This document shows, in pieces, positions 3,440 through 41,625 of a stretch of DNA of 64,000 nucleotides (its first letter is position 1; each line of letters starts with the position of its first letter). The notes below the pieces were generated by a model. That model was not told the DNA's origin, made no database searches, and saw nothing but the letters and a program-made list of their open reading frames with translations. The DNA comes from Parelaphostrongylus tenuis (taxonomy: Eukaryota > Nematoda > Chromadorea > Rhabditida > Metastrongylidae): the NCBI GenBank assembly GCA_019055375.1, contig JAHQIW010006155.1:18836-82835 (forward strand), read 5' to 3'. Both the position numbers and the translations under genes were made by a program.

Positions 3440-4423
3440 ATGACGACCCAAACCATCCATGGTAACTCGCAACTCCAAAAGCCTCTCTCTCAGCGATGGA
3501 CGTGGGAGTCTCTCAATGGAGAGTATCATAACGAAATAGATCACATCATAGTAAATCGAAGGTTTTGCCTGACCGACGTCGCTGTTGTCTCCAAGATCTA
3601 CACGGGATCAGACCATCGCCTCCTTCGCGCAACGTTTCGATTTTCAAGGAGAGGAGAGAAAGCCGCTAAATTCAAACAACGAAGTCCCAGAACTACCATA
3701 AACTGGGATGTATTCAAATCATTAGTCGGCTCTTGGGAAGATACCGTTGTCGACAACATCGACGGAGAATACGATCGACTCGCTGAATATCTTCGCCTTA
3801 GCGCCATGAAAGCAGAGAGTTCTAAGGTCACGAAGAGACGCTTGTCTCCGCAGACACTCGAGCTGATACGTCAACGTGGAATCGCACGAGCCGCAGGCAA
3901 CCGAAACCTTACGTCCGAACTTGCGAAACGATGCAGAGAAGCGATAAAAGAAGACCTTAAAGAGAGAAGAGCAGCAGTTATGGCAGAAGCTGCAGAAGCT
4001 GGGAAGAGCATTCGCAAAGCCCAGCGAGGCTTCGCCAACTATAAGACCAAGATGATTGCACTCCGATACCCTGACGGGACACTTACAGCTTCCAGAAGGG
4101 CTATGGAGAAAATCATCCACCAGTACTACTCGGATCTCTTCGCTAGCCATGTTCTCTTACCGTCATATAAATTGAAAGAGGTCGAATATGTCGTTCCACC
4201 GGTCCTTCCTTCCGAAATCCGACATGCTATATCGTCGGTGAAAAACAGAACAACACCCGGTCCAGACAGGATTAGACCAGAACACTTGAAGAACTGCCGC
4301 CAGTTCTCATCAACACCCTGGCTCGGCTCTTCACTCGCTACCTGTCAGAATGCAAGGTCCCTATTCAATGGAAAACCAGCAAGACCGTATTGTTGTTCAA
4401 AAAGGGAGACCTTCACGACATAG
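3440..4423 (+). pseudogene. RTE copy 1: endonuclease end and linker to RT
   Basis: This begins within the endonuclease: WTWESLNGEYHNEIDHIIVN, then TGSDHRLLRATF with the terminal SDH motif at about 3605-3615. A charged, Ala/Glu/Arg-rich linker follows (about 3850-4050), then the RT entry region with NRTTPGPDRIRPEHLKN. After PEHLKN the frame is lost by a small deletion: copy 2 retains NLPPVLINILARL there. The apparent Met start at 3440 is internal to the polyprotein and not a real start. Confidence 0.9.
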
Positions 4424-5811
4424 GCAATTATCGCCCAATCTGCTTGCTGTCCGTTGTCTATAAACTCTTTACTCGAGTCATCCTGAACAGGACTGACAGA
4501 ACACTGGACGAAGGACAGCCATGCGAACAAGCAGGGTTCAGAAAAGGATTTAGTACCATGGACCACATCCACACGATCACAAGACTCATTGAAGTTTCGC
4601 GAGAGTACAAACAACCACTCTGTCTCACTTTCATCGATCTGAAAAAAGCCTTTGATTCAGTGGAAACAGAAGCGGTTATAGAGGCTCTGGATAACCAGGG
4701 CGTCCCTACTCGGTACATAATGATCCTTCGTGAGCTTTATAAAGATTTCACGACCAGAATATCTCCATTCTACAACAATATCACCATTGACGTAAGAAGA
4801 GGGGTTCGACAAGGCGATACAATATCGCCAAAACTATTCACTGCCACCCTACAAAACGTCATGCGAACATTAGAATGGGACGAAATGGGAGTGAAAATTG
4901 ACGGTCGACAATTAAACCATCTTCGCTTTGCTGACGATATCGTTCTCATAACACCAAACATCAGCCAAGCGGAACGAATGTTGACTGATTTCGACAACGC
5001 CTGTGGAAAGATCGGTCTTCAACTGAATCTAACGAAAACAATGTTCATGAGGAACGGATGGGTTTCTAATGCCCCATTCACGCTCAACGGAACGACAATT
5101 TCCGAATGCTCCAGTTACATCTATCTAGGTCGTGAAATCAACATGATGAACGACCTAGCCCCAGAGTTGAGCAGGAGGAAACGAGCGGCTTGGGGAACGT
5201 TTAAGAGCATCGAAGATGTAGTGCAGAGGACAAAGAACATCCGACTCCGTGCCCACCTTTTCGACTCGACAATTATCCCTGCCCTAACGTATGCAGCAGA
5301 AACCTGGTCGCTACGTAAGCAGGATGAAAGATCACTTGCCGTTATCGAACGCGCAGTCGAAAGGTCGATGCTAGGAGTATCTCGTATTTCGCAAATGAGA
5401 CAAAGGATCCGAACTTCCGACCTACGTCAACGATCGAAAATCAGAGACGCCGTTCTACACGCCAGGATATCGAAAATAAGGTGGGCCGGACACGTGATGC
5501 GCTTCAACGACAACCGATGGACGAGAGCCGTTACCGACTGGATTCCTCGGGACGTCAAGCGCTCTAAAGGAAGACCACTGACCCGTTGGTCCGATTTCTT
5601 CACGAAAGCGATGGAAGAAAGATATGATGCTCAGCGAATTCCTAGAGCAAGGAGGACCCCTGTGCTACTCTTGCACGCGATAGGGAAAAATGGAAGAGTT
5701 GCTGGTACCCGCTCGAGTCACTCGACGATCAACGGGACGACAGGTGATACAGGTGATACAGGTGACTCGAACACACCTAAAAACAGATCAAATAACTATA
5801 ACAATTTCTAG
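4390..5811 (+). pseudogene. RTE copy 1: reverse transcriptase and C-terminal region
   Basis: This encodes the RNA-directed DNA polymerase. Visible motifs are NYRPICLLSVVYKLF, QAGFRKGFSTMDHIHTI, motif A FIDLKKAFDSVE (near 4636-4665), motif B GVRQGDTISPKLFT, and motif C LRFADDIVLI with FADD at 4927-4938. These are followed by the thumb-like region, a WAGHVMRFNDNRWTRAV segment and a GRPLTRWSDFF segment. The catalytic residues are intact. The last part, after about 5660, is in the wrong frame (LLLHAIGKNG instead of the expected W-rich end). It overlaps the preceding open segment only because of the frameshift near 4290. Confidence 0.92.
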
Positions 5812-8954: not shown

Positions 8955-9006
8955 CCCTGCTGATCACTTTTTGAGCCACGCATGTAGTCTGTTATATAAA
9001 GGACAA

Positions 9007-9305
9007 TGGATAAAGCTGTCGGCGTTGATCAATCTCTGAGGGATGCGCCATGCATTCGCCTTCAAATTTTAGCTTCGTCTGAGGTGATTGAATGCAGATC
9101 TGCCCTTTACAATGACTCGCGCTGACCTCTCGCTGAACGGCGTCAGTGCAGCTAATCCTCCCGGACAAGTCTGAGACCAGTTTGGTACCAATCTACCGAC
9201 CGCGGAGGGATGGATGGCTTGGTGAGTCATGGGAGCGAGGTCGAACCACTGACCTCGTGTGCGACGTAGAGCACCTCTAACTACTGCGCCGCATGCGCCC
9301 TTATG
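9007..9305 (-). mobile_element. SINE family 1, full copy inserted in alpha element
   Basis: In reverse orientation it starts with the tRNA-like head (GCGCATGCGGCGCAGTAGTT, A box) and TGGTTCGACCTC (B box), then the body and an AACGCCGACAGCTTTATC end. Alpha sequence resumes on both sides, with similar flanks (left TTATATAAAGG, right ATTACATAAGG) that look like a target-site duplication. It is younger than the alpha element it interrupts. Confidence 0.8.
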
Positions 9306-9335
9306 CGGGCTATTACATAAGGCTGACAAATTAGA

Positions 9336-9379
9336 GCCCGATAGACATGTTTCGAACTTGACGGTCTCATCACTCGGGC
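9336..9379 (-). ncRNA. alpha hammerhead ribozyme, core mutated
   Basis: On the minus strand: stem I GCCCGA, core GTGATGA (C3 changed to G; consensus CTGATGA), stem II, GAA, palindromic stem III ACATGT, then C and TATCGGGC. The C3 change should abolish cleavage because C3 pairs with G8 in the active fold. Confidence 0.7.
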
Positions 9380-9652
9380 GATACCCCTTCGTCTTTAGAT
9401 ATCCTTTCGGGGCGGTCAGTCCCTATATTAAGAGTAGGCGATGACGAGAATTTTGCACAGTCTGTTTAGTGAAATTATCACTGGAAAGATAGTGTCATAC
9501 ACTCGATTGCTCTTGGCTGGCATCGTTAACATATCATAACTTTCGTTTCGAGTGTTAGCTTTAGACGACGCTCAGATATCAACGTGCCTGATAATCACAT
9601 TTTTAGCCACGCATGTGGTCTATCAAATAGGGCTGACTTATGGAGCCCAATA

Positions 9653-9995
9653 TTGAAAACATTTGAGCGTAAATTTAAGAAAAAACTCGAAACGAAAGGT
9701 ATGATATGCTAACGATGATAGCCAAGAGCAATCGAGTGTACAGCACTATCTTTTCAGTATTATTTTACTGAAGAGACAGTGTGAAATGTCGGTCGTCGCC
9801 TACTCTTAGTATAGGGGGCTGAGCACCCTGGGAAGATTGGCTAAAGACGAAAGGGTACAACTCGTTGAGACCGTCAAGGTTGAAGCACGTGTATCTGGCT
9901 CTATAAGCCAGCCACATGCGTGGCTCAAAAAGTGATTATCAGGCACACTGAAATTTCAGCGTGGTCTCAAGAAAACACTAGAAATAAAAGGTGTG
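9653..9995 (+). mobile_element. alpha hammerhead element, plus strand
   Basis: One unit on the plus strand: TTTGAGCG block, ACTCGAAACGAAAGG block, degenerate ribozyme (9857-9900), the CCACATGCGTGGCTC block, and then the beginning of a further unit (GAAATTTCAGCGTGGTC, 9950 on). It lies head to head with the minus-strand array ending at 9652. Confidence 0.75.
9857..9900 (+). ncRNA. alpha hammerhead ribozyme remnant
   Basis: The core reads CTCGTTGA in place of CTGATGA, and GAAGCACGTGTA in place of GAAACACGTGTA. The stem III palindrome CACGTG and the ATCTGGCT side of stem I remain. Probably inactive. Confidence 0.55.
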
Positions 9996-11516
9996 ATACA
10001 TTTTTTTTCTCTATTGACTGGATCTCGCTAACTACAGTACCCTCCTGAAAGTAGAAGAAATGTCCCGACGATAGTGTCCGCAGATCAGCAATTCAATTAA
10101 AACGACACATAGCTGCTAATTTAGCTACATCTAGCGTTCATGAAAATTTTAATTTGCCGTTGATGATTTTACACCGCTTTCGATTCGTGACTCACTGAAG
10201 AGACAAAACAAGTTAATACTATTCATTCGACTGCTTTTATTGAGCTCGTTCAACAAAAATAGTAATCTGGTAATATGATAACATGTTCTGAGCATTTCAT
10301 GAGGTCTGGTATGGCACTTATGCAACACTAAACGGGCCTGTTTAGCTCTTCCATACACATCAAATTATAAATTATTCACGAATAATCAAAAGTTATTGCA
10401 TTTCGGATCGCATAATATCACTAACATACTAATTGAAAAGGAACTTTCCTTTCTTCCACAATAAAGCGAGCAACTTATATGGAGATCTATTTTCTTTCCG
10501 CAATGAAATTCCCTGGTTTACCATTTGAACCCTAAGTAAAAGCTTGTTCGAAGAAAGCGAGTAAGCCATCGGATTCTAGATAACAATTCTGTACACTGGT
10601 GGACGACAGCTTCTATTATCCAATGACGGAAATTGGAGTGGTAATGAGAGATCACATGGTTGTGGAACAATGCCCACTGCATAAACCGGCCGAATTCACG
10701 ATATCGGTTCGCCGATGTTTGGCGCCGTGAAGTTAATAAATACCTTTCGATTTCCATCTCTACTGAGTATCTCTACGGGTCGTCAAAACTTTATTTTATT
10801 GATGAGTACACACGGTTGTCGTGAATCTTTATTGTGGCAACATTTCGACGGTTTCGCCTTCAGCAGAGCCATAGCGATTTGACTGGAGACCACAATAATT
10901 GTTGTTAATCTTTGGAGCTGTCACAGCACGATTGAAAGAGGTTCATAGCGCTGCCTTTACATACTGGACTCCAGCACATTCTGAGGTGACCTAGTGTCTA
11001 CTATACAGCAATCTCTATGAAATAACGCAAAACTATTTTTCTACAAGAGAAATACTCTCCATAAAAGAATTCATTGATATTAGCCGAATGGTGCGGTGCT
11101 CTGTTGAAGTGAAGAACAAGCTGGAGCGAAACCGTTTTTTGCACAGTAAATCAGCTTGAACAACAAGTAGTCGCTACAGCACCTAAGTCATACAATGCCG
11201 AACTGCTACAATACGTGATTGCTTATTCATCTCCTTTCGGCGTTCATAAGAAAATTATTATGGAACCGATGATTCTACAACGTCGAAGGTGCTCTTGACC
11301 TGCTATTCGTTTTACAGACATAACAGAATTGTTACTCATCGAATCGAATCGAGCAGTTTCGCTTACATATTGATTGAGATGAAGCCTTTGCTTTCTTCAC
11401 TACATGTGTAATGTCACTCACATGAGGTGAAAAAGTTATTCTTCATAACCCCTTGCTTGCAGATCCCTGAGTGAGAAATGGCAAAACCACCGTTTAAATT
11501 CCCCTACTTTCTAATC
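9996..11516. other. unassigned region with one beta ribozyme relic
   Basis: Apart from the hammerhead-like relic at 10836-10870, no gene, SINE or coding remnant is recognised. Confidence 0.45.
10836..10870 (-). ncRNA. beta hammerhead-like remnant
   Basis: On the minus strand: GGCT, CTGCTGA (core CTGANGA altered at A6), AGGCG...CGTC stem II region, GAAATGTT, GCC. Stem I GGC/GCC is retained. It marks a PLE 3' end whose coding part is not visible. Confidence 0.5.
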
Positions 11517-13158: not shown

Positions 13159-14677
13159 ATGGCTACACTTTTGAAAGCTTCCCTTATGATTTTGCTGCTA
13201 ACTACAATCTCCATAGCGTTGGGATGCGGAGTGACACCGGCAGGTCAAAGTAATATACAGAAAATGTTGTGGTGTGATAATGCTCTCGATCATAATTATT
13301 AATGAGAATTTAGCCAAATTAACTGAATCTAGCACCTCATCAGTATTTCGAAAGCTGTCACAATCCCACTGTATTGAAGTGAACATTGAATTTCTAATTG
13401 AGAGTGAAATATGGTTTTGAAAGATTGCTTAAATTTGTGACTCGATTTTGAGATAGGCACTGCAGAAACTAAGAGATATTATTGCAGCAAGCACTAGGAG
13501 TTTCACTGTCAGCGGCTTCACCTTGAATGTTGCCATGGCTTACGCGGGAAAGCCCGAATTTCGACCCAGATTCCTGGAATTGCAGCTAGCAGGTATAGAG
13601 CCCAGGCATTCGTACAACGTCTTGTAATGCAGACAGTAAGTGTGCAACTCGATCTCAATTTTCTTCTTTACCTATTTCAGAAAGGCTTAGGAACGTGAGA
13701 TTCGATTTCCTGACATTTTGTCAGCCTCTCAGTGCAAACATGGCTTGCATGACTTCACATGATTTGACTGGTAAAGGAATGATGTACAAACTCTTTGAAT
13801 TAGTTCAAAAAGTTTCTTCTGCAGGTATTTGATGTTCTCGAAGCCAGGGTCGTAGCGCACTACTGCCTGATGCTGCTAATTTCGGCTATCTTGAGTCAAC
13901 TCACGGTAAACGTTACTTACGAGCCTTTGAGATGTGAGACAGTCGTTAATAGCCCAATGGACAACACAGTAGAGCGTGCGTATTTAGCATTGGCATCCAT
14001 TCAAATGATTCGAAGAGTAAGTATAACAGCTTATAAAGTGGAAGGCGGTGTGCCTATTGTGATAGAAAGAACGACTTGACAATTTTTCGAAAACTGGCAG
14101 AAATATTCTTAATTATCTGAGAACTATTGTAGTAGTAAAATCTTCATAATCCACTATCATGTTACCGAATTTTCCATATTTTTCTGAGGAGTGCTGCAGT
14201 ATTAAATGTATTCAGCTTTGATGACGAAAATCTTCGAAGAATGAAGGCAAATTGACTGTGTAACTTTCTTTGATACTTTTCGGCTTCGTTATTTCATGAA
14301 GGATATCATTCTAGAAGCTCATATTTCCTTATAGTCCAAGTTATGCATCCGAACTGCATCATCATCGGCAACACGGTGACAGGACTATGCATTCCAGCAA
14401 TGGATAAGAAAAAGTGTATGGAGCAAGACAGCATGAAGACAGCTGTTTCCGCCAATCACACGTCAATATCAGGAACATTCTCGGTCTGACTTGCACTTTT
14501 CATGAGAAGTTCTGCCTTGAAAAGAGAAAAGACATTGCTGTACAGACCACAAACATCGTCATGGCTAATTGGTCAAGAGCGATGTGGCAAAATGTCGCGA
14601 ACAGAGCGATTCGAGTGTTGCCATCGGGTCCATTTGGATCGAACTTCTTCGGCTCTGCTACTGTCGGTGGAAGCTGA
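13159..14677 (+). pseudogene. secreted nematode protein family, copy A, five exons
   Basis: Exon 1 (13159-13243) starts with ATG and encodes a signal peptide (MATLLKASLMILLLTTISIA). Exon 2 is 13488-13635 (STRSFTVSGF..., ending VMQT before GTAAGT), exon 3 13825-14016 (VFDVLE..., ISAILSQLTVNVTYEP), exon 4 about 14335-14483 (NCIIIGNTVTGLC), exon 5 14546-14677 (TTNIVMANWSRAMWQNV... to TGA). Introns follow GT-AG. The product would be a small exported protein with several Cys; I do not recognise the family, so no function is given. Single-base changes break the frame in exon 2 (near CCCAGATTCCTGG) and twice in exon 3 compared with copy C. It is therefore a pseudogene, or the assembly has indel errors. 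Confidence 0.75.
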
Positions 14678-14967: not shown

Positions 14968-15306
14968 ATAGATCCTTTCATTATTATTTGAGCCAACATG
15001 CATGTGGTCTGGTAAAGGCTCTTGTACAGCCCGAGACACGTGTTTCGTCCTTACAGACTCATCAGCCGGGCAGAACCCGTCGTCTGTCGATCTTTTCATA
15101 GTCAGTTCTCTCGGTAGCGTCACACTCCTTATATATAGTTATCGACGACCTGCGCTTTACACTCTCTGTCAGGTGAAACATTCACCTAACACAGAGTGTT
15201 TTCGCACTCGATTGCTAGCTGGCTGGTATTTTATCATATTATACCTTTCCTTCGAGTGCTTTATTAAGACCACGCTCAAATTTCAGTAGATCCTTTCATT
15301 ATTATA
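14968..15306 (-). mobile_element. alpha hammerhead element, minus strand, well preserved
   Basis: Reading leftwards from 15306: unit end (AATGAAAGGATCTACTG), TTTGAGCGTGGTCTTAATAA, CACTCGAAGGAAAGG, a central body, the intact ribozyme at 15029-15071, and then the unit end again, ending in GGATCTAT at 14968. It pairs with the plus-strand copy 15315-15520; arms 14968-15125 and 15315-15473 differ at only a few positions. It is non-coding. Confidence 0.82.
15029..15071 (-). ncRNA. alpha hammerhead ribozyme, intact core
   Basis: On the minus strand: stem I 5' GCCCGG; core CTGATGA; stem II GTCT-GTAA-GGAC (3 Watson-Crick pairs, one G-U, GUAA tetraloop); GAA; stem III ACACGTGT (self-complementary, no loop); H17 = C; stem I 3' TCGGGC. 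All invariant hammerhead positions are present, and the predicted cleavage lies between 15035 and 15034. The loopless stem III is typical of PLE-associated hammerheads, which are known to cleave as dimers. It is the best ribozyme in the window. Confidence 0.88.
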
Positions 15307-15314
15307 TATAAGTA

Positions 15315-15520
15315 GTGTGACGCTCCCGAGAGAACTGACTATGAAAAGATCGACAGACGACGGGTTTCTGCCCGGCTGATGATCTGTAAGGACGAAACAC
15401 GTGTCTCGGGCTGTACAAGAGCCTTTACCAGACCACATGACATGTTGGCTCAAATAATAATGAAAGGATCTATTGAAATTTGAGCGTGGTCTTAATAAAG
15501 CACTCGAAGGAAAGGAGTAA
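15315..15520 (+). mobile_element. alpha hammerhead element, plus strand, well preserved
   Basis: It starts inside the unit (GTGTGACGCTCCC), passes through the ribozyme 15370-15411, the unit end AATGAAAGGATCTATT and the beginning of a following unit (GAAATTTGAGCGTGGTC to CACTCGAAGGAAAGG), where similarity stops. It is the mirror image of the left copy. Confidence 0.82.
15370..15411 (+). ncRNA. alpha hammerhead ribozyme, one-base deletion in stem II
   Basis: GCCCGG, CTGATGA, TCTGTAAGGAC, GAA, ACACGTGT, C, TCGGGC. It is identical to the intact copy except that G10.1 at the start of stem II is missing. Catalytic residues are present, but the stem II base pair next to the core is lost. Confidence 0.82.
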
Positions 15521-15639
15521 TTTCAATATTTTTCTTGGTGATTTCTATGAGCAAACATGCCATTTATGTTTGTGGTAATTGAACTAAGTGATTGATGAAA
15601 TATGGAGATTAAGAGTGCAATCACGTATAAGACAGAGGT

Positions 15640-15893
15640 ACAACGATGCGTCACGCATTCTTCTTCAAGTTTTAACTCCGTTTGAGATGAGTGAATGCAT
15701 ATTCGGCCTTTACAATGACTCGCGGTGTCCTCCCGCTGTATATAGTCAGTGCTACGGACAAATCTGCCATTAGCTCGCTACTACTTATCGACCCCGGAGC
15801 GATGGATGGCTTGGTAAGCAGTAAGCGCGAGATCGCACCATCGACCTTGTGTGCGACGTAAAGCACCTCTAACCAAGCGCTAAATGCGCTCTA
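15640..15893 (-). mobile_element. SINE family 1, minus strand
   Basis: Body blocks GAATGCATATTCGGCCTTTA and ACAATGACTCGCGG and the reversed tRNA-like head near 15830-15890 (GACCTTGTGTGCGACGTAAA, GCACCTCTAACC) match the other copies. It is diverged: the B box region reads ATGGTGCGATCTC in the sense orientation. Confidence 0.75.
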
Positions 15894-16580: not shown

Positions 16581-16600
16581 ACTTTGTATAATCTGTGGGA

Positions 16601-16904
16601 GAGCGCATGTGGCGCAGTGGTTAGAGGTGCCCTGCGTAGCACACGAGGTCAATGGTTCGATCTCGCGCTCATGGCCCACTAAGCCATCCATCCCTCCGGG
16701 GTCGGTAAATTGGTACCAGGCAGGTCTCAGACTTGTCTGGGAGGATGAGCAGCACTGACTCGGTTCAGCGGGAGGCCACCGCCAGTCATTGTAAAGGCCA
16801 GATATGCATCCAATCACCTCAAACGAAGTTAGAAATTGAAGTCGAATGCATGGCGCATCCCTAAGGGATTGATCAACGCCGAGAGCTTTATCTTTTTATC
16901 CTTT
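16601..16904 (+). mobile_element. SINE family 1, full length with target-site duplication
   Basis: The tRNA-like head has an A box (TGGCGCAGTGGTTAGAGGTG, 16610-16629) and a B box (GGTTCGATCTC, 16654-16664), forming an internal RNA polymerase III promoter. A unique body of about 220 bp follows, ending ACGCCGAGAGCTTTATC. The flanks repeat TATAATCTGTGGGA (16587-16600 and about 16905-16918), a clear target-site duplication. No true tRNA cloverleaf is kept. Confidence 0.9.
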
Positions 16905-17129
16905 ATAATCTGTGGGACATTAATCCTATTGGATGAGAAATTTGAGGAGTCGTATGCATTTGTAGTTTCTTCAATAAAATTTTTCTGATGCAACCTACGT
17001 GCCTGTAGAATACTCGAATTTCTTCATTATTCATTTCTGTGTTATTTGTTCTGGTGTGGAATGATCATAGGTTCGGTGATTATCATGTTTTTGAAGAAAA
17101 AGAGTTTGACATTGTAATGCTCCCCAAGA

Positions 17130-17260
17130 CCGATTATCTACTAATTTCGGCATGCTTCAGTGATTCCTTATGCTCTTCTTAAGCCACACTCGAGGTTTCA
17201 TAATATTATTTATTTGAACCACTGACGTTCTGGCAGTTTCACAAAGATTCTAGAGGCCTG
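17130..17260 (-). mobile_element. PLE 3'-terminal fragment, minus strand
   Basis: CGGCATGCTTCAGTGATTCC and the CTTAAGCCACACTCGAGGTT block match the end of other PLE copies (52640-52730 in the same orientation; reversed after 19640). A poor beta hammerhead relic lies at 17215-17255 (AACGTCAG retained on the minus strand). Confidence 0.55.
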
Positions 17261-17274
17261 ATAATGATATTATG

Positions 17275-17600
17275 AGAAAGCATGTGGTTTGTATAGGGCA
17301 ACTTACAGAGCCCGATACACGTGTTTCAATCTTGACAGTCTCATCAGTCTGGCGGTCCTTCGTCTTTAGCCCGTCCTCTCGTGGAACCCATCCCGATACT
17401 AAAAGTAGGCTACGACGAGCATTTTACACGATCCATCATGTGAAAGTATCACTGAATGGAAAGTGCTGTACACTCGATTGCTCTCGGCTTGATATCCTTC
17501 GTTTCGAGTGCTTTCTTAAGACCACGCTCAAATTTCAATATGGGTGATAATGATTTTCTGAGCGACGCATGAGGTTTGTTGTTGGGCAACTTATATTTTA
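17275..17600 (-). mobile_element. alpha hammerhead element, minus strand
   Basis: The unit body blocks (CTTTCGTTTCGAGTGCTTTCT-like, GACCACGCTCAAATTTCAAT, ACTCGATTGCTCTCGGCTTG) occur in the expected order with a ribozyme at 17310-17353. A partial preceding unit (17545-17600) stops within about ten bases of its own ribozyme cleavage point. Confidence 0.75.
17310..17353 (-). ncRNA. alpha hammerhead ribozyme, core intact
   Basis: On the minus strand: GCCAGA, CTGATGA, GACTGTCAAGATT, GAA, ACACGTGT, A, TCGGGC. All core bases are present and H17 is A. Weak points are a G-U at the base of stem II and one mismatch in stem I. Confidence 0.75.
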
Positions 17601-19771: not shown

Positions 19772-20616
19772 ATCTTTTATATTCTTGAACGTCAAGGTAT
19801 TAGCGCGCTCCTTCCTTATGAAGTAATCTCAGGAATTTTAGGCCAAGTTCGTACTCAAATCACCTACAAACCAACGAGTTGCGAAATGGTTGTAAGCCTA
19901 GAGATGATGAGTGGGTCTTCATTATGGAGCAACTACTTGAATGATTGCAGGCAAAATAACAGCCACTTGAATAGCGCAAATGTGTTCATGAAATCCCAAA
20001 TGAAAAATAAACAAGCAATAATTAGGGAACTACTAGAAGATGTCTTAAATTATAATGAAAGCTATCCAAGCGGCACGGAAAGTGGAATTTTCAACTTGAT
20101 GCTATTCTCGAACAATTCTCTCATCTCTTCCTGAGAATGATATTGCATTTTGTGGGCCACGTTGAAAGGTCATAAAACTAGAATAAAATTGACGCTCTAA
20201 ACTGCTTTCAACTTACTCTATTTCATACTTTAATGGAAGAATATGTTTTCTAAGCCTCAAAGTTTCTCGCAGCCGCAGAAGATGATGTATCAAACTGTAT
20301 AATTGTCGGCAACACAGTGACGGAAATTTGTGCTGGAAAGAAGGCCAATAAATGTGATTTGGCAGCAAATCATGTAAATATAACGCTTGTACCAATAATC
20401 ACACTTCATTATCAGGAGCACTCTCGGTTTGAACTGCCTTCGTCCTTGTAAAAGTTCGCATTCAAAGGAAAAAATTGCTAGACCACAGACATCATCATGG
20501 CGAATTGGTCGAAAGCGATGTGGCAAAATGTAATGAACAGAGCTATGCGAGTATTGACGTCGGATCCATTTGGATCGCACTTCTTAGCGGCAAATGGCAT
20601 AATTGGCGGAAGTTGA
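19772..20616 (+). pseudogene. secreted nematode protein family, copy B, 5'-truncated
   Basis: Exon 3 begins at 19772 after CAG (IFYILERQGISALLPYEVIS). Exon 4 is about 20279-20426 (NCIIVGNTVTEIC), and exon 5 is 20482-20616 (TTDIIMANWSKAMWQNVMNR... to TGA). No signal-peptide exon or exon 2 exists upstream; a PLE end at 19680 takes their place. Exon 4 has a frame break against copy A: the segment that should read TNNHTSLSGALS is in another frame. It is not functional as a secreted protein. Confidence 0.75.
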
Positions 20617-21179: not shown

Positions 21180-21268
21180 CCAACAATTTTTATTATACCT
21201 TTATTTCGAGTGCTTTATTAAGACCACGCTCAAATTTCAATATATCCTTTCATTATTATTTGAGCCAA
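21180..21268 (-). mobile_element. alpha element fragment
   Basis: TTTCGAGTGCTTTATTAAGA, CCACGCTCAAATTTCAATAT and CCTTTCATTATTATTTGAGC match the 15-kb alpha copies. No ribozyme is included. Confidence 0.75.
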
Positions 21269-22789: not shown

Positions 22790-23300
22790 GAGAGTTACGC
22801 CAAATAATAGTAGCAACGAGAACGACGTTGTTTCAAACTTAGACGAGAAGATCCTTTGAAACTACCTTCTATAAAGAATGATTTAAGCAAAGTTATAAAA
22901 AGCCGATCAAGAAACAGTGGTCTGCAATATTTGGTAAGAATCATAGAAATTCCTCTTGTTAACTTACAGCGCCAGTTGGTTCGAAACCGCTTGTAGACCG
23001 TTTTGTGTAAGAATGAAAACTGTGTAAGAATGTATGCCCTAATGGTAGAGAAGGAGATTGCATAAGTCGAGTGCAGTTATACCTGATCTCGTTAACAGCA
23101 TGCGATGACGAATACATTGGCGAGGTAGGAAGACCACATTGGATCCGCGTCAAAGAACACTTAGATGGGAAAGACAACAGCAAAGCAAGTAAGCTTTTGA
23201 GGGCACACAGAGTGGAAAAAACATAACGATACGGCTTTTGATGTGGTGGTGAAATTTTTGGGGCAGGAGTCAAGAACATCAAGAGAGAGAGAATACCTAC
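22790..23300 (+). mobile_element. PLE GIY-YIG fragment
   Basis: ACDDEYIGEVGRPHWIRVKEH (23098-23160) contains the YIG motif, catalytic-Arg region and Glu-His of a PLE GIY-YIG domain; the GIY half upstream is frame-shifted. A deletion near 23285 joins it to the start of the next PLE unit. Confidence 0.75.
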
Positions 23301-26300
23301 TCAGTGTAAGTTTTGAATAAAGAAAAGGACAGTTTGTGAGAAATTTTACATTTTTTTCAATCATGCCAATGCTTAGAGATAGTCAGACTTTTGAGTCTTT
23401 TGCGCAATGTTTCAGAAAATCCTAAGAGATCTTGTAATACTGCTACCTCAAAATGAATGGATAAACCGTCTCCTTTATTAATTTTTGAAGTGATTAGAAA
23501 TTAAATTTAATGATGGACGTCCTTCGATCTCCTATACGTCAGCAATTGATTATCACTCCGATTGCACAGCGGGCCACCGTGGTGATATCATTTGGGTCGA
23601 TTTATCATCCGACGGAAAAAGCGCTACTCTTTTTGGGAATGCTACAGGTAAACTTAGGTTCTGATAATTTTGAAAGTTTTTCGAAAAGACCCTTCAATGC
23701 AAATATCGTTGCCTGTTGCATAAATACATTAGCGAAGCGCATTGGTAGGCACCAAATTGTGCTATCAGCTGCTCAAACGATTGAAGTGATGCTCAATAGA
23801 ATCACTGATTGTTCGTTAGTAATCTAACAATCCCGCAATTAGTCAACAGAAGAAGTCATTCGCCAATTCGCATAATTATCAGTCAGAGAACAACGGCTTG
23901 GACTTGTTTTTTGCGGAGAATCTTTCACTCAGGGTTCTACAGAGGAGTTGTAATATAAGGCTTTTGGGCTCCTATTTGAGTTACATGACAGATGTGGTAG
24001 AAAAAGACAAATTTTTATGCTGATTAGCTGAATAAGCAGGCCGTGTCGCAGCAATCTAGTAATGTATTAGTTCCGTGTTTAGCTCAGCTATATTATTGTC
24101 CCGAAAAACAGCTTTGCTGCAGAATTCTTTGAATTTCGTAGACAGTACTACTGCGCTACGTCGTCGAATTTCAATAGATCTCGAGAATTTTAAAGAATAA
24201 CTTTACTAGTTTTGTCGAATTCACACAGCTTAGGTGATATAAAAATGCATGCTGAGTGTAGAATTGATTTTATCTTCACTGTTGCAACGCTCTAAGAAGC
24301 AATTTTTAAAAGCTAAGGACAGTATTGAAAATTCTTAGTTCAAGTTATTGGATGACTATTGGAAGTTTCTGGGAATTTCGAAGATGCGCATGTAATGTGA
24401 AGCGCGATCTTATTTTAGCTGCCGTAATGCCCTGAGAAGGCCAATCAAAACGCTATAGTACTAAAGTTGAGCTAAGGAATATACTAATTGTCTCAGAAAA
24501 GCGAAAGCGTCTTGTCTTCAAAAAGTTTAAAAATGTATCCTAACTACCGAGTACTTTTTTGTCAAAATTCATGTAAACAAAATTGTTATTCAAAGTCACT
24601 TTATGTACGATGATGTACTGTGATTACTACTTCGATCTCGGAGCATTTCATCGCACTCAATTTATCTCATTGCGACGATCGCAAGGGCCATGATTGCAAG
24701 CAAAACATCTACCTCGGAAGCTCAACGTAAATCATTGTGGTTTTGTTGTAGGCGAGGCAGCCGTGAAAACAGGAGACGTCATGGCTATTAATATTCATGA
24801 CATCCTTATGCAAGCCATCACCAAAATACTTAAAAACCCAAAGCAAACTTTAATAAGGATAGTAGCTATTTGAAAAAGCGAAACTTCAACCTACAGCTTT
24901 ACGTATCCTGTTTTTCGAAAAAGCCTTTTTTTTGACGCTTGCTACAGGAGGAGATTTTACTGCGTTGCAGAAGTGCGCATTTTCTCAGCGGATTAGAGCT
25001 CCTTCTTCGGACTACCAGTAAACATTTGAGAGCATAGTCGTTTCTGGCAAAAGGAGAACAAGATTGATTCAGACGTACGTTAAAAGAGTGTTTTTGACCA
25101 CTTCACGGGGTGGTAGGAGGCGGTGCAAGGGGGATGTGGCCGCTTTCACACGGTCGTCGATCAATTCACGCATTTGCTGGTGGCATATTTCCCTGCTGCA
25201 CTGCATAGAAACAGTTTTTCCAAAAATAAGCACACCGTGGAATCAACAACAATACGCTATGGAATGATTACTAACTGTCCCAAAGATAGAACTCTGTCCA
25301 GCCATTGTAAAGTGCAAAACTTTTATTTTTCCTAGAGCGCTGACAAAGAGAGTTTCCAAAAAACAAACATATCTTTGAGCTCTTCGAAACTTGTGCTATC
25401 TAAAAAATACTAGCATTCTAACTAAGAAGTTTTGTTCTAGAATATAATCGAGATGAGAAAAAAACACGTGGCTTTGTAGAACATAATTTTATTTATCAAT
25501 TTTGCTCCACTATAAGAGGATGTTTTGAAGAACCTGCCTTCGAAAGAACCTTCTTTGAGTTCTTCGAAACTTGTGCAATCGAAGAAATACTAGCACCTTG
25601 AGCAAGAAGTTTGCCCTGAAAAATATAAGCGAGATAAGAAAAGAATACGTGGCATTGTAAAGCATAATTTTAATTATGGATTTTTGCGCCATTATAAAAG
25701 GGTGTTTTGAAGAACCGGCTATGTGGGGCTCTAGCCTGAAATTTAAGCTTTCAAAAGATTACTAAGACTCTTATAAAAACTTTTTCTCCAGCGAATGAGA
25801 TCACCTTTTCCCTTGTTTTCTTGTGATCAGGAAGAGGTGAAATTTGTTGCAGAATTACATATTGCATCTCCATGTGGATTGGTATTAAAGTGCTGAGAAT
25901 GCGAAGATTTCTCTAAATCTACTCCTTTGGTGGGATTCTCCAACTCAGATTCCAAATATCACATGGAGGAAATGGATAACCTTATTGAATCATCAGCTTT
26001 TCTTCAACAAATTTATGAGCGCTAAATATCGCCGAATAAGCAGCACTATGTCGGTTTGACTGAATTGCTAAGCGACGAGGAGTTTCACCGTGACGTTCTT
26101 TATCCGCATTCAATTAGACACACTGCTTAATCAAAGATTATGACTAAATAGGAAAATAACATCATCATTGTTTTCTATGAATGTTAAATGTTAAAGAAGT
26201 TGAGTTGAAGAACAGAATGTTGTTATTCAGCAGCTGAAACATTACGGCAGCCACTGAACTATATCAAGTTCAGCAATTGCTCTTACTTTGTTGAACTTTG

Positions 26301-27200
26301 AAAGTCGTTTTCCATTTAACCGCGGTATGCTTAATCTACATTATCTCTGGTTATCTATGTAGCACAGCTTCAGTAAAAAGGGCAATTGAGCTCTGTAACA
26401 TGTTTGAAGAAATTTGCTTAATTGCAGCCATGTCATCCACATTACTCCTTCGGGAAATTTCGATAATTTAGAGGTATCATGCCCTCCGAAATCATCATAC
26501 CACTTCTTTAATTATGAGCACTAATTTCGTATGAAAGTGAGTGAAGTTGTGAGGCTCTATAAATTTTTTGTGGCATTCCTAGAAAATCGACCTAGCACAG
26601 TACGTCCTCAAGTAGTTTAGAATAGCTTATATGATCGTCTGTGCAAAACAGAGAGATAAATTTTCTCAGCGGGAATTCGAAACTACTTGGGCTTTTATAT
26701 AATACGCCTAAATTATCGTGAAAGACGGGTGGTGAAGAAATTTACGATATGTGCATATCATGTTATGCCCTTTCAAAAGAGCATCCAAATAGACGGAATC
26801 CTGAAGAAATGCTCCTGTAGTTGAGCAGAGTGCAGGACTGAGCAAAGGGGAGAGTGTCAGGCTATTATTCTTGTACAGCCTTACCTCAGATTCATTTTCT
26901 TCACTCTGATTATTGTTTAATGCTTATAGTGTTTAAAGAACACAGGGGTGACCTTTTCCCATTTGAGGAATTAGGCAGTGGACTTCCGATAATAGGTAGA
27001 GTTTTGAAACCATCTTCTATATTTCTTGATTAGAATGTAGGATATTCACTGAGTAATTAGTGCTGTCGCCTCTGTTGCAATTCACTAGAGCCACGTAGGC
27101 AACTTGGTGCCAGAATTACCTTTAGCCAACTGTTTCTTAAACATCGTTTCTAAGCTCTGATATAATCTTAAATACTTTTACTTTTCTCGATATTTTATGC
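23301..27200 (+). mobile_element. second PLE unit, interior unrecognised
   Basis: It opens with the PLE start region (TTTTTTTCAATCATGCCAAT... TAGTCAGACTTTTGAG, about 23348-23395), equivalent to the ORF start at 55735. After about 70 bases, recognisable PLE coding is lost and 3.5 kb of non-coding repeat follows, which is shared with 58780-62250. A 105-codon open frame at 23510-23827 is broken in the partner copy, so it is probably not a gene. The part 24900-25740 belongs to a dispersed repeat also seen near 29.4, 39.1 and 54.1 kb. Confidence 0.5.
25373..25735 (+). repeat. tandem duplication, two units of about 180 bp
   Basis: Both units run from CTTTGAG(C/T)TCTTCGAAAC through GAAATACTAGCA or AAAATACTAGCA, AGAAGTTT and ACATAATTTTA or GCATAATTTTA to GTGTTTTGAAGAACC or ATGTTTTGAAGAACC. 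The partner copy at 60710-60880 has one unit only, so the duplication postdates the split of the two blocks. Confidence 0.8.
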
Positions 27201-27860
27201 TCCCCTCTTTAGAGCTACACACGCCATAGCCACCCTATACACTAGGAAAGAAGAGACGCAGAATGACAAGTCCTGATAAAACGAAATGTTGCTCCTCTCT
27301 TGTACAGTTGATAGCTCATGGCTGTCAAGCGTGCGACGACGAATACAACACCAAGATAGGCCACCTCGTATCCGTGTAATGAAGCACTTAGACAATAAGG
27401 ATAAATTTTTTTCAACAAATGTTCTATTAGCACTACCAGATGATCTGTGACCAGAGGCGCTGAAGTACTTTTAACCATTCTCTCACAGGAACGTAAAACT
27501 TCAAAGTGAGAATTTTTTAAACCGCGTTGGATCTGTACGACTAATCCAAATTAGAATAAAAAAAATGAGTGGATAATTACTACTTGTAATTTCGCGTCGT
27601 ATCTCACGGCGATTTTTATGCATATGAGTTGAGCACGCATCTCGCCCATGTAGTACTCAGTGCAGTCGATCTACAAAGTCAGCTGGTGGGTGATATGCAC
27701 TGAAACGGTGAGTATTCTGTTGAAGATGATTACTATTCATTCAAAATTTGCGCATTCCGTTACATCCGCTTTGGTCATGAAAGTGTTTAGCAGAGCAGAT
27801 TGCACTTCACTTTGACTCTCGCAAGCTCTGAAGAAGACGAGTCGCCAAAAGGTGTGCCAC
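27200..27860 (+). mobile_element. PLE 3' part, strongly decayed
   Basis: GIY-YIG remnants (a CGACGACGAATACAACACC region near 27340), a conserved-tail relic (TAATCCAAATTAGAATAAAA), the GAAACGGTGAGTATTCTG block and a beta relic at 27823-27858 occur in the order seen in the 18.9-kb PLE. The equivalent in the other block is 62280-62932. Confidence 0.6.
27823..27858 (+). ncRNA. beta hammerhead relic
   Basis: AGCT, CTGAAGA, AGACGAGTCGCC, AAAAGG. The CTGANGA half is kept, but GAAAC has become AAAAG. Confidence 0.5.
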
Positions 27861-28184
27861 TGCAACTATATATTGCACTGTCAGTATTGCAATCAGTGAG
27901 CCCGTCTGCTATGTTCTCTATACATGCAAATGCATTTCGTGCTTCCAGCCAATTATACGAGTGATAAAAGTGAAGGTGCGCGGAGAAGTGAAACATAATT
28001 TTGTTTCGGATTTTACAGCGTCATAAAGGGTCTATCTAAAAAATCTGACCACGTGCGGCGCTAGTTGGAGATCTTAGCTCTCAAATAATCACTAATACTC
28101 TTTATGAAATGTTCTTGTCTTGCTAAAGTAATATTTTAAAAGAAATCTGTGCTACTGAACGTAAATCCACAATCTGACATTTCC

Positions 28185-28224
28185 GGACTCTGAAGAAGGC
28201 GAGTCTTGCCGAAACATTAACCAT
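28185..28224 (+). ncRNA. beta hammerhead, core kept
   Basis: GGACT, CTGAAGA, A, GGCGAGTCTTGCC, GAA, ACAT, T, AACC. Core CTGANGA and GAA are intact and stem II GGC/GCC forms. Stem I is weak because of ACT in the 5' strand, where AACC would call for GGTT. The partner at 63259 is similar. Confidence 0.6.
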
Positions 28225-28924
28225 TGGATAATATTAATTTGCTGTATTGTTACACTGCGCTACTATATTGCGCTGCATTGGCCGCTGGTCAATAAACGCT
28301 AGTGTTACCAACTCGGAACAGCTCAACAGGAAAATACGACTGAGTTATGATGTTCACCATAGATACCTACCGCTGATTTTGGACGTCTTCGTCTTCTTCT
28401 AACTTAAACGTTAGCCGAGTCAGATTTTTTGACCTAGCGCTATCAACTAGACAAAGAAATCGCAATAGACTGATAATGCGATGTTTAATAGATAGTCGGC
28501 TTTCAACACGTAGCATAATACTAGCATCGACATCCTATGAAATAATATCGTAGAGTCACACTAAAGAATGCTGATTGATATGCAGAGCACTTAGGCAGAA
28601 GTTTGAACTCACTTCTCACCAGTACCAAGAGCGCGTGGTGTCAGTATATAAGCAAGGCCACCGCTCTTCTATCAGACTTTCTCCGACATAACGCATCGTG
28701 GCCGACTGCAAGTTAGGTGAGTTTGGGTGTTCTAAATTATTCTCATTGGTATATCTGTGTGCAGAATGTTTGAGGTTACAAGTGTACTATGCAGTAAAAG
28801 ACTCAATTGAGGGCTACCTTAAAAGAAATGACGGCGTTTCGAAATTGAGTGCGAATTTGTCAAATGCTTGCTAATACTCATATCGACTGTGAGTCCATTT
28901 GGTCTTCTTTTATGTACAGCGCTT

Positions 28925-30869: not shown

Positions 30870-31150
30870 AATCTTACTTTAATAATACCAGCCGCAATCT
30901 ATCAACTGAAAAGTGGTGGCAACATAATGTCATTGTACATTGTGCTATCATCACATACGGCGTCCCTCCTTGCCACAGTGCAGGGCTTAATGTGGAGCGC
31001 GGATCACTGACGAGAAGGGCGAGACTTCCGAAACACGTGGGTATGGCTCTGGTGTGCCAAAACTCGGGTGAGGTTTTGAATATCGTCAAAAAATTATATC
31101 GATATTATTGTGAGGTCTTTAAAAACAGTCGATTCCATGGATCAGTTTTA
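30870..31150 (+). mobile_element. delta hammerhead element, plus strand
   Basis: Shared blocks with 41150-41345, 49165-49400 and 54665-54780: CCAGCCGCAATC, ATGTCATTGTACATTGTGCT, ATCATCACATACGGC and a hammerhead-like core. It lies directly behind an RTE tail. No coding is recognised. Confidence 0.6.
31001..31050 (+). ncRNA. delta hammerhead-like motif
   Basis: CTGACGA, GAAG-GGCGAGA-CTTCC, GAA, ACACGTGG, G, TATGGCTC. The core and stem II are good, but position 17 is G (not allowed) and the stem I 5' strand does not pair. Probably inactive. Confidence 0.55.
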
Positions 31151-36167: not shown

Positions 36168-37231
36168 TTATGAGGCGGTGGCTGTTGCTGAGAAGAAATG
36201 CGAACTAAGCGGACCCGTTGCCAGTGTTCGAATCGCTCTGTTCACTACATTTTGCCACATCGCTGACGACCAATTCGCCATGACAATATTTGTGGTCTAT
36301 ACAGATATCCTCTTCACAAAGAAGGTATATGAAAAAAAAAACTCTAACCGAAAGGGTTCCTGAAATCGTCAAGTGTTTGGTGGGAACATCTGTTATTGTT
36401 ACCGTCTGCTCTCCTGCTTTACACATCTTTCTCATATTAGTTGTAGTGCAAATTCCCGTCACCGTTTGTTGTCGACTATGATGCAACTCTCTTTCATCTC
36501 GTCCACTGTAACGACATATGACTCTACAAAAACACATTTTTTCACAACAACAAAGAGCTGAGAAAAGTCAAAGAGATGTGCAATTACTTATTCCTTCTCA
36601 TTTTTCAAAACCCTCTAAGTATTTACTTGACACATTTGATACTACTATATCATTTTTGCGGAAACATGAAAAAACTCATTTACAAAATGTCTTTAATTAC
36701 CTTGGTTCTGATTTTTGCGTCACTATGCTATATTTCCCTTATTCTACTATATTTCTGCTCGAATTTTTAAGTGGATTCTAAAATTGGATACCCACACATT
36801 TCCCCTGGACTGACAACTATCTTGCACTGCAGTGGCTTCGTAAGCGATTCTGACTTCAAGCTGACTCAAGATAGCCGAGATTACAGCATCAGGTAGGAGT
36901 GCACTACGAGCTTGACGTTCGAGAACGTCAAAGATCTGGAGAGCGAACTTTTTTCGTAGGCTCAAATAGCTTATTTGGAACTAGTGTTATGCTAAAGATT
37001 TATTGAAAAATTGCAGCTTGCCTCTTACTTTTTATTGGAGTTTGGAAAGAAGAAAAAAGGATTCATTGATTCACAAACTTACTGTTTGCATTACAAAGCG
37101 TGAAACAAATGCCTGAGCTTCACTCATGTCAGCTGCAATTCCAGGGAAACGGGCACGGACACCGACTTCGCTGGAGTAAGCCATGGAAACAGGTAAGGTG
37201 AAGCGGGAAACGTTGAAGGTTCTAGTGCTTG
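36168..37231 (-). pseudogene. secreted nematode protein family, copy C
   Basis: On the minus strand: exon 2 37083-37231 is fully open (STRTFNVSRFTLPVSMAYSS..., SEAQAFVSRFVMQT, then GTAAGT); exon 3 about 36792-36935 (IFDVLERQARSALLPDAVIS, AILSQLEVRIAYE); exon 4 about 36349-36505 (ESCIIV, then a 2-base insertion before VTGICTTTNMRKMC, ending SISGTLS-like TISGTLS); exon 5 36168-36296 (TTNIVMANWSSAMWQNVVNR to TAA). The C-terminal VGGS of copies A and B is replaced by TAS. No signal-peptide exon is present; PLE sequence lies immediately upstream. Exon 2 is the best template for judging the frame breaks in copy A. Confidence 0.75.
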
Positions 37232-37332: not shown

Positions 37333-38040
37333 CAGGTGACGTTTCGGCGATTTCGCCTTATATAGAGCCTGGGAAAGTTAGGTTGACCATAATCCAGTCA
37401 GCCAACATGCCCATCAAATCACCGACCCCAGAATTTGATCCCACAAAGCACAATAATTAATTTTCGACATACTCGAATGACAGTCTTATATACTGTCTCA
37501 TATAACGTCAAACTACAACGCATTCTTCCCAGCAGTTTATGCTCCCATGGGTAGTGTTTACCTAAAACGCTTCTAAAAATTTTTACTCGTTTTATGGTAG
37601 GGTGATGAGTTGTGCTTCGTAATTTATCCCATTATGAGTCTGTGTCTTATGCATGCCCAGTGTGATGCTTGCTCTTGAGCTATTCCTGCCTTCACCGTAA
37701 TCCTTCACGCAGACATGAAATGGCCTACTCGTTTCACCAATATATCTTTCGGAACACCCTTTACAAAACATTATGTATACTGTACCTATGAGCTTAATCA
37801 CTGTCTCTACCGCTGAGGCATATTTTGCATTTTTGCATTGCACAGAGACAGTGGTATAAAAGCTGCAGCAAAGTAGATAGCGTCTCAGAGTATTTGGTGA
37901 TATTTCAATGATCGTGACCAATTTCCAAGCCTGCCTTCTCAAAGAACTCATGAGCTTTGATAAGTGAGTGTAATATTGAACACCTTGGTAATCGAAATCC
38001 AGTTGGGAAGTGTTGAATCACTTTGAACCTGCTACTTTTG
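37333..38040 (-). mobile_element. PLE 3' part, minus strand
   Basis: An open segment (37951-37592) reads IEISPNTLRRYLLCCSFYTT, then GTVYIMFCKGCSERYIGETS, the GIY-YIG domain with both motifs intact. The catalytic Arg region is altered (RPFHVCVKDY). Downstream, at the 3' end, lies the beta relic 37336-37371. Confidence 0.75.
37336..37371 (-). ncRNA. beta hammerhead relic, stem II perfect
   Basis: On the minus strand: GGCT, CTATATA (core lost), A, GGCG-AAAT-CGCC, GAA, ACGT, C, ACC. Stem II, GAAA and stem III are kept while the CTGANGA half has decayed. Confidence 0.6.
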
Positions 38041-40118: not shown

Positions 40119-40384
40119 ATTCATAGTATTATTAGAATCTTGTGATAAGCTCAATAAGGTACAAGAGAATGTTGAAGAATACTGAGGCTGAGAGATAGCC
40201 AGTCTTGGGGCTTTGAATAGTCCTTTGGGATTATTTTCCAATTTTGTTGGAGATTCACAGCTGTTATACGTAAGTATTAGGAATATGATATCACTTGAGT
40301 GCTGATGTTATTCTATATATCGAATGTACAAATATGTCTTGGCCGTTCTTTCTTCTGCTGTAATAATAGTGGAAATAAAGCTAA

Positions 40385-40679
40385 AAAAGGATAAAGCTTC
40401 TGGCTTTGATAGAACTCTGGGGGATGCTCCATGCATTCGTCATCAATTTTCAACATCGTTTGAGGTGACTGAATATATATCTGGTCTTTACAATGAATGT
40501 GGTGGCCTCTCGCTGTACCGAATCAGTGTTGATTATCCTCGCAAACAAGTCTGAGACCTGACATCGATTTACCTACATTGGAGGGATTGATGACTTGGTG
40601 AGACATAAGCGCGAGATCCAATGATTGACCTCGTGTGTTACGCAAAATACATCAAGCCACTGCGCCACATGCGCTCTTA
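40385..40679 (-). mobile_element. SINE family 1, minus strand
   Basis: Body blocks GGGATGCTCCATGCATTCGT, GTTTGAGGTGACTGAATATA and CTTTACAATGAATG, and the reversed tRNA-like head CCACTGCGCCACATGCGCTC at its right end. The B box is diverged (sense CATTGGATCTC). Confidence 0.8.
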
Positions 40680-40822: not shown

Positions 40823-40900
40823 CTGCGGAAACTTTACAGATTCAAAATAAAAAGTTCGGCTTTCTACAAACCTCGGCATAAATAATTGATATATGGAAAT

Positions 40901-41140
40901 CGAGAAAACTTATCTTGATTAACTGACACGAGGTTGGTAAGTTAGTCGTAGTAATTCGGGTGACGTTTCGGCGACCCGCCTTCTTCACTGCCTGGGCATA
41001 TGTAGTTTTAGGGTAATATATTGTGATAAGACTAAGACTACATAAGCCCAGGTTCTGAAAAAGGCGGGTCGCCGAAACGTCACCCGAATTACTACGACTA
41101 TTTTACCAGCCTCATCAACTAATCAAGATAAATTTTCTCG
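40901..41140. repeat. palindrome of two beta ribozyme units, head to head
   Basis: Left arm 40901-41006 and right arm 41037-41140 are inverted copies around a 30-base centre. Each arm carries a beta motif: minus at 40959-40995 (GTGAAGA, so C3 to G) and plus at 41050-41085 (CTGAAAA, so G8 to A). Stem II GGCGGGTCGCC, GAA and ACGT are unchanged in both. As RNA or single-stranded DNA the arms would fold into a long hairpin. Confidence 0.85.
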
Positions 41141-41149
41141 ACATTCCTT

Positions 41150-41345
41150 ATAGTCTGCAAGAACGTTTAGAGCCTTATCGAAGTTGTCGCATCAGGGCTA
41201 TGCACGTGTTTTGGAGGTGTCTCCTCTTCATCAGTAGCCCTCGTCTCACAATGAGCTTTAGCAGGGAAGGAAGACCTATGTGATGATAGCACAGCGTACA
41301 ATGTCATAGTGTTATCACTATATTTTAGTCGAATGATTGCGGCTG
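41150..41345 (-). mobile_element. delta hammerhead element, minus strand
   Basis: On the minus strand: CAGCCGCAATCATTCGACTA, ATGACATTGTACGCTGTGCT, ATCATCACATAGG, the ribozyme 41195-41240, then ACAACTTCGATAAGGCTCTA, a tail also found at 54750-54770. Confidence 0.65.
41195..41240 (-). ncRNA. delta hammerhead ribozyme, stems intact
   Basis: On the minus strand: stem I GGGCTA; CTGATGA; stem II AGAGG-AGACA-CCTCC; AAA (G12 changed to A); ACACGTGC (U16.1 changed to C); A; stem I TAGCCC. Stem I is a perfect 6-bp match and stem II has four pairs, so the fold is clear, but two core substitutions should stop cleavage. Confidence 0.7.
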
Positions 41346-41581: not shown

Positions 41582-41625
41582 GTACAATATGCGTGTTCCG
41601 GCCTTGACAGCCTCATCAGTCGGAC
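41582..41625 (-). ncRNA. alpha hammerhead relic
   Basis: On the minus strand CTGATGA and stem II GGC-TGTCAA-GGCC-like pairing are kept; the GAAAC half reads GGAACACGC and stem I no longer pairs. Confidence 0.5.

Follow-up and report, generated by a model that had tools for sequence, protein, structure and literature searches.

The strongyloid nematode Parelaphostrongylus tenuis, which lives in deer, carries what we interpret as a non-coding retrozyme-like unit, whose RNA is predicted to pair and to undergo self-cleavage; its DNA copies probably arose through the enzymes of Penelope-like elements (PLEs) acting in trans. We hold this account as a whole to be probable, if not strongly so. At the level of sequence, the 64-kb stretch of DNA that was analysed (the window) contains an intact hammerhead motif in a unit that has no open reading frame (ORF) and closes on itself, relatives of this unit at seven loci, stems that covary among the copies, and 3' ends that point outward and, in eight of ten arms, fall into two zones. 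PLEs are regarded as strong candidates for the mobilisers of animal retrozymes, on the grounds of co-occurrence and shared ribozymes (PMC7229834, cited, like every article here, from excerpts of its text), and a non-autonomous hammerhead unit with the end pattern of a PLE would make this proposal testable. If, as is less certain than our general account, a PLE reverse transcriptase copied the units from both strands of a single cut, the head-to-head arms and the two zones of 3' ends would document in DNA how PLE enzymes mobilise retrozymes. In the literature searched this link has so far only been proposed, and the family would be the first retrozyme-like one from nematodes.

An Rfam scan of the whole window revealed a match to RF00163 (Hammerhead_1) on the minus strand at 15029-15071, with 34.9 bits (E 5.5e-5) over the full model (1-45), which exceeds the gathering score of 34 bits by 0.9 bits. 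This was the only Rfam match in the window that reached its gathering threshold. The preliminary description had recognised a hammerhead here and had suggested a covariance-model search, and the sequence that it gave is indeed present on the minus strand from 15071 to 15029, with all of the invariant bases, the 6-bp stem I, the GUAA-capped stem II and the palindromic stem III that it had listed. In the residue check, CTGATGA and GAA were found in the core, H17 was C, stem I paired at 6 of 6 positions, stem II paired at 4 of 4 and closed the GUAA loop, and stem III consisted of the loopless palindrome ACACGTGT with 4 of 4 pairs. This copy (A-) therefore belongs to RF00163 by its score, invariant core, H17, three stems and opening at stem I, and from its position within the hammerhead the predicted scissile bond lies between C17 (15035) and U (15034) on the minus strand. 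When Rfam was used in E-value mode, the only other hammerhead match was a sub-threshold one of 23.0 bits at 15370-15411 on the plus strand, and the snoRNA, isrG and lncRNA families that were matched in the window all scored below their own cut-offs. ARAGORN called no tRNA in the window, and a 26-letter pattern taken from the ribozyme and its 3' flank had no match in one scan of viral contigs.

A chance match, or a dead relic that never had a function at the RNA level, would be in keeping with a score barely above the Rfam cut-off, with the broken state of most copies and with the fact that two of five covariation measures are indistinct from shuffles. We consider such an origin very improbable, given the E value, the compensatory changes among the copies and the rarity of the motif in simulated DNA: a strict hammerhead descriptor, composed after the motif had been seen, matched one site in the window, which is A-, and two sites in 200 order-1 Markov simulated windows when both strands were searched. 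In the alignment of nine copies, from which arm B+ is omitted because the 5' half of its ribozyme is lost, 86.4% of the cells in the ribozyme stems pair, and 17 cells carry double changes compared to 6.6 ± 2.1 after shuffling, a count that none of 500 shuffles reached, in a statistic that for this and the following stem set ignores the relatedness of the copies. Changes on both sides were found for 6 of 14 pairs (3.6 in shuffles; 15 of 500 as high), and the number of further pair types, 15, was no different from the 14.4 of the shuffles (240 of 500 as high). Sliding the partner by 1-3 columns made the paired cells fall to 15-50%. A long hairpin that appears upstream of the ribozyme in the fold of A- (15159-15199, minus strand) was evaluated in seven copies, as arms A+, C-, E+ and F- end short of it, and the alignment in which its changes were counted had also supplied its structure; 86.7% of its cells pair, with 8 double-change cells compared to 2.8 in shuffles (0 of 500 as high). 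Neither the pairs with double changes (4, reached in 65 of 500 shuffles) nor the further pair types (9, reached in 376 of 500) stand out for this hairpin, and 6 double-change cells were counted when its partner was slid by -3, compared to 8 unslid. The simplest reading of these substitution patterns would be that the RNA structure was under selection in the past of the family; the single intact copy A- may be silent today.

The intact ribozyme is part of arm A- (14968-15305, minus strand), which in self-BLAST and alignment consists of one unit with a period of 318 nt plus about 20 nt and has a short 3' end. It is joined to arm A+ (15303-15521, plus strand), an inverted unit that is truncated at its 5' side and has a long 3' end. 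The two arms are 97.7% identical over 173 columns (97% over 172 columns in the self-comparison, with the inverted copy at 15303-15473) and form a head-to-head inverted pair with the 3' ends outward. A+ contains the sister hammerhead at 15370-15411 (plus strand; 23.0 bits), in which the stem check showed G10.1, the first base of stem II, to be missing and which is likely inactive. Comparison of the 3' end positions of the arms further places on A+ an extension, similar to a tail (15474-15521, plus strand), that is absent from the 3' end of A-. The preliminary description had spoken of tandem units. Tandem Repeats Finder reported no array at locus A, where the units are inverted and head-to-head, and these inverted arms rule out a tandem satellite; what stands of that description is an intact type I hammerhead, its loopless stem III being of the dimer type, in a short repeat that is non-coding and has its relatives among PLEs and retrozymes. 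Both arms of locus A also carry TATATATAAG upstream of the ribozyme, at 15128-15137 (minus strand) and 15303-15312 (plus strand). By analogy with the TATA box proposed for an A. vaga pLTR (PMC3846280) it is a possible promoter, and it is not exactly kept in the other copies of the family.

A profile search (nhmmer) with a profile from nine arms placed relatives at seven loci in the window, lettered A to G. Besides A, head-to-head arms are present at B (9332-9998), C (49587-50118), E (41482-41953) and F (53585-53943), that is at five of seven loci, and D (17256-17599) and G (21191-21268) are single. According to alignment, profile and stem check, C3 of the core is changed in B- (9332-9652, minus strand), whose profile match ends at 9332, with a SINE-like repeat about 30 nt beyond, and the core is lost in B+ (9649-9998, plus strand), which has a long 3' end. 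The core is kept in C- (49587-49740, minus strand), with mismatches in all three stems, and G8 is changed in C+ (49741-50118, plus strand), both arms having long 3' ends. Profile and stem check showed that D- (17256-17599, minus strand) keeps the core, has a single mismatch in stem I and another in stem II and ends short on its 3' side, that A13 is changed in E- (41482-41837, minus strand; long 3' end) and A14 in E+ (41821-41953, plus strand; short 3' end), and that G8 is missing and G12 changed in F+ (53689-53943, plus strand). The decayed arm F- (53585-53675, minus strand; nhmmer E 4.9e-7), which lies head-to-head with F+ and is 75.7% identical to it over 70 columns, has a core that is unrecognisable by eye, and copy G (21191-21268, minus strand; self-BLAST and profile) comprises only the tail and some of the segment that follows the ribozyme, with a long 3' end. 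Ten arms were stem-checked, and the eleventh, F-, which spans the ribozyme position by profile coordinates, was excluded as decayed. CTGATGA, GAA and H17 are kept in four of the ten (A-, A+, C- and D-), and only A- has a ribozyme that is fully intact in core and stems, which counts against our preferred account. Five weak profile matches were set aside, at 8955-9008 (E 3.9e-6), 10224-10356 (E 1.6e-5), 9455-9505 (E 0.0015), 31028-31132 (E 0.058; unplaced) and 15159-15199 (E 0.11), two of which are antisense matches of the hairpin.

The arms within a locus are mutually closest in A (97.7%), in B (77.6%) and barely in C (71.1% compared to 70.9% for C-/A+). Those of locus E share 56.8% identity and are not each other's closest relatives, another point against the preferred account. 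Since arms of one locus are not always closest to each other, some arm pairs may go back to two distinct RNAs or to separate events.

The inverted repeat of locus A is nearly perfect (97% over 172 columns), as might be found if a MITE-like DNA transposon, bounded by terminal inverted repeats, contained a hammerhead by chance. We give this interpretation hardly any credence, because the outer ends in A are unequal by the 48-nt extension, the inner truncation points differ, D and G are single arms, and the ribozyme stems covary, for which a DNA transposon has no need. Also, flank words of 6-7 nt are shared at five of seven loci, with AGTAAT at locus A as the best candidate, and at two of seven there is none, so that comparison of flank words yielded no convincing target-site duplication at the seven loci. 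With unequal ends and no clear duplication, symmetrical terminal inverted repeats with a fixed target-site duplication were rejected; the lack of a convincing duplication also counts against the account that we prefer.

The same point of the unit is reached twice in four arms, giving unit periods of 318 (A-), 309 (B-), 294 (C+) and 288 nt (D-). Lengths of 321-378 nt were measured for A-, B-, B+, C+, D- and E-, six of the ten arms, and in these, sequence from behind the ribozyme or from the tail lies directly upstream of the middle part. As the unit closes on itself, there is no room for an ORF of PLE size between ribozymes, and as six of ten arms exceed one full unit, the template would have been an uncleaved multimer or a circle. 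The GC content of A is 0.443. In the closed A unit the longest open frame has 105 codons and is antisense, and an open frame of 162 codons (41417-41905, plus strand) overlies locus E; both frames are taken as chance. No ORF of at least 130 amino acids was found in loci A-D, F and G, where the ORF for reverse transcriptase and GIY-YIG endonuclease that characterises PLEs is missing. The ORF of the Anolis PLE starts within its ribozyme core; a similar start was considered here and rejected, with a stop at codon 4 in A- and at codon 14 in D-.

This organisation bears on the alternative that the loci are solo, decayed pLTRs of an autonomous PLE, that the ribozyme belongs to that PLE and that the ORF-bearing copies are situated outside the window. 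Head-to-head arms and an optional tail are features of pLTRs, solo pLTRs have been reported (PMC3846280), and minimal type I hammerheads occur in PLEs (PMC11167929; PMC7761336). However, the 3' end of an ORF should precede the pLTR of a PLE, whereas A-, B-, B+, C+, D- and E- run from ribozyme and tail straight into the middle of the next unit without an ORF, and an endonuclease fragment in the window, described below, has a different minimal motif downstream. We therefore regard solo pLTRs as an unlikely explanation, which nevertheless deserves to be taken seriously.

With respect to the 5' side of the arms, none of the ten crosses the scissile bond of the next ribozyme by more than about 3 nt; B- stops at this bond (9650-9652), and D- fails to reach it by about 4-8 nt. 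Such end points would fit a template with a 5' end generated by ribozyme cleavage, ten arms being too few for proof. The outer 3' ends, placed by eye from alignments, lie 97 (C-), 105 (B+), 106 (E-), 110 (C+) and 116 nt (A+) past the scissile bond in the long class and 60 (D-), 67 (A-) and 71 nt (E+) past it in the short class. Two zones thus hold eight of ten arms, with class means 40.8 nt apart, and the remaining ends are at 47 nt in the decayed F+ and at 10 nt in B-, where the match breaks off near the SINE-like repeat. At loci A and E, the extension is present on exactly one arm each.

These end positions are also relevant to the possibility that a metazoan retrozyme was mobilised by an abundant RTE-type LINE, with inversion arising from L1-like twin priming. 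Twin priming leaves one 3' end at the end of the element and the other one internal. At A, C and E, by contrast, both outer ends lie in the two element-specific zones, which speaks against L1-like twin priming, and there is no poly(A) directly at the inspected ends. A LINE with a reverse transcriptase, which we take to be of the RTE type, is present in several copies, and its ORF at 4276-5811 contains Pfam RVT_1 and shares 99% identity with KIN20_027010 of Parelaphostrongylus tenuis across 72% of its length; the other 119 matches listed include, among the named ones, Necator, Haemonchus, Ancylostoma and Angiostrongylus. The size and low GC content of the unit do match metazoan retrozymes (PMC7229834). 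On balance, mobilisation by this LINE appears improbable.

Under the account that we prefer, a PLE enzyme would cut both DNA strands, reverse transcription would be primed at one or the other of two fixed positions beyond the ribozyme, and the two cDNAs would extend towards each other and join at variable points. For Penelope, adjacent inverted pLTRs in head-to-head arrangement are the commonest form, and a 31-bp tail is optional on one inverted pLTR (PMC3846280). Cleavage and extension of both DNA strands have been shown for the purified protein of an Anolis PLE, which favours AT-rich DNA and begins at two neighbouring sites inside the RNA; these sites account for the tail (PMC11167929). Flanks in our window are AT-rich only at some loci, with AT contents of 0.53-0.88 at six of seven loci compared to 0.59 for the window (A left 0.88, B left 0.53, D left 0.55). 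Mutants of the Anolis ribozyme left insertion in vitro unchanged, this ribozyme cut only when the protein was present, and RNA-seq reads neither started nor terminated where it cleaves (PMC11167929). From these Anolis results ribozyme cleavage may be dispensable for insertion, and this counts against our preferred account. Head-to-head copies have been explained by self-priming on an antisense template and not by opposed priming (PMC3846280), to which opposed priming is one alternative. We offer it only tentatively, and with less confidence than the general account, that the reverse transcriptase of a PLE, working from the two strands of a single DNA cut, copied hammerhead RNA units, which may have been circles made by the ribozyme. 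No direct tandem of two sense ribozymes was found at any of the seven loci in the window, and this weighs against the preferred account because cleavage of a dimer in cis and formation of circles need such tandems.

Two 43-mers co-folded unconstrained into a double hammerhead of -33.5 kcal/mol, with stems I and III formed between the strands and a stem III of 8 bp. The best fold of a lone 43-mer was not a hammerhead (-12.0 kcal/mol compared to -9.2 kcal/mol for the hammerhead). In these models, a double hammerhead is predicted from base pairing when two RNAs of the unit join through the palindromic stem III. When the transcript of the whole locus A was folded, 42 of 43 ribozyme bases paired with the opposite arm, which makes the full-length transcript a poor candidate and its self-processing unlikely as far as the predicted structure goes.

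The remainder of the window agrees with PLEs being around, as it contains a GIY-YIG-like endonuclease fragment, eleven sites of a minimal hammerhead-like pattern and a second palindrome. The endonuclease fragment, an ORF at 37592-38017 on the minus strand with the motif RYIGETSRPFH, reached an E value of 0.021 for Pfam GIY-YIG, which is below the cut-off. We assume it to be PLE-like, and as judged from its motif it is a candidate relative of the mobilising enzyme. The fragment, taken as an ORF of 141 amino acids and within a longer frame, had no relative in the protein database at E 0.001, and a short motif scan of the window failed to pick out a PLE reverse transcriptase; these negative results count against the preferred account. 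A minimal hammerhead-like motif with three mismatches was found by the pattern scan 228 nt downstream of the fragment (37341-37364, minus strand). The pattern employed, TGANGAAGGCG...CGCCGAAAC, is typical of PLEs; with up to three mismatches allowed, it occurs at 11 sites in the window compared to 7 in the 20 simulated windows that served as chance control. Outside the palindrome at 40890-41152, the sites are at 10842, 19602, 27829, 28191, 37341, 40082, 52718, 62903 and 63264, AATAAA follows within 60 nt at 10842 and 19602, and these nine further sites are possibly terminal parts of PLEs. The palindrome itself (82% over 267) is head-to-head, belongs to another family and has one minimal hammerhead-like motif per arm, at 40965-40987 (minus strand) and 41056-41078 (plus strand).

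Other repeats were noted in the window. A SINE-like family occurs at 16600-16906, 8995-9301, 15645-15892 and 40375-40677 and looks tRNA-derived by eye, with no tRNA called by ARAGORN. A block of about 6 kb is present twice in direct order, at 22790-28898 and 57805-63952, with four main pieces of 78-81% identity 35 kb apart, and is either an old duplication or a large repeat. A three-copy sequence was found at 14319-14650, 20397-20593 and 36185-36521, two copies of which could encode a peptide MANWS(R/S)AMWQNV.... The idea that 13482-14650 represents the 3' end of a PLE leading into locus A was dropped, as its translation displayed no PLE motif by eye.

Like the metazoan non-LTR retrozymes (PMC7229834), the unit of P. 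tenuis is small, non-coding and low in GC (below 50%), carries a type I hammerhead and is multi-copy, with copies longer than one unit. Its periods of 288-318 nt compare to about 170-400 nt for the circular and linear RNAs of retrozymes (PMC7229834). Retrozymes consist of direct tandem copies with canonical hammerheads (PMC7229834), whereas the P. tenuis loci, none of which has direct tandem copies of the ribozyme unit, display inverted head-to-head arms, a loopless stem III and two zones of 3' ends; the word 'inverted' is absent from the main text of PMC7229834. With PLEs and their pLTRs (PMC3846280; PMC11167929) the unit shares a minimal hammerhead, head-to-head inverted repeats, at five of seven loci, and an optional 3' tail of about 30-40 bp, seen here as two end classes, and it would also resemble them in being primed on both strands and from two neighbouring sites. 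The tail measures about 41 nt here, compared to 31 in A. vaga (PMC3846280) or 30-40 (PMC11167929). In contrast to PLEs, the unit lacks an ORF and closes on itself. Apparently, it is built like a retrozyme and inserted like a PLE.

Sm-alpha of Schistosoma mansoni is likewise a non-autonomous hammerhead retroelement of a parasitic worm, which belongs to another phylum than our nematode. It is named among hammerhead elements (PMC6155905), and in the excerpts consulted on Sm-alpha head-to-head insertion of the PLE type is not described. The hammerhead of the newt satellite resembles the one of P. tenuis in its dimeric mechanism and elongated helix III and differs from it in belonging to a direct tandem satellite of a vertebrate (PMC6155905). 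A literature search for hammerhead or retrozyme together with nematode retrieved no hammerhead retroelement of nematodes in the titles and abstract openings found, and 'nematod' does not appear in the main texts of PMC7229834, PMC7761336, PMC3088659 and PMC6155905. In summary, type I hammerheads in the terminal repeats of PLEs and in small tandem retrozymes of animals are already known (PMC7229834; PMC7761336; PMC6155905), and what is new is the finding in a nematode of a hammerhead unit that is non-autonomous, closes on itself and displays the end pattern of a PLE.
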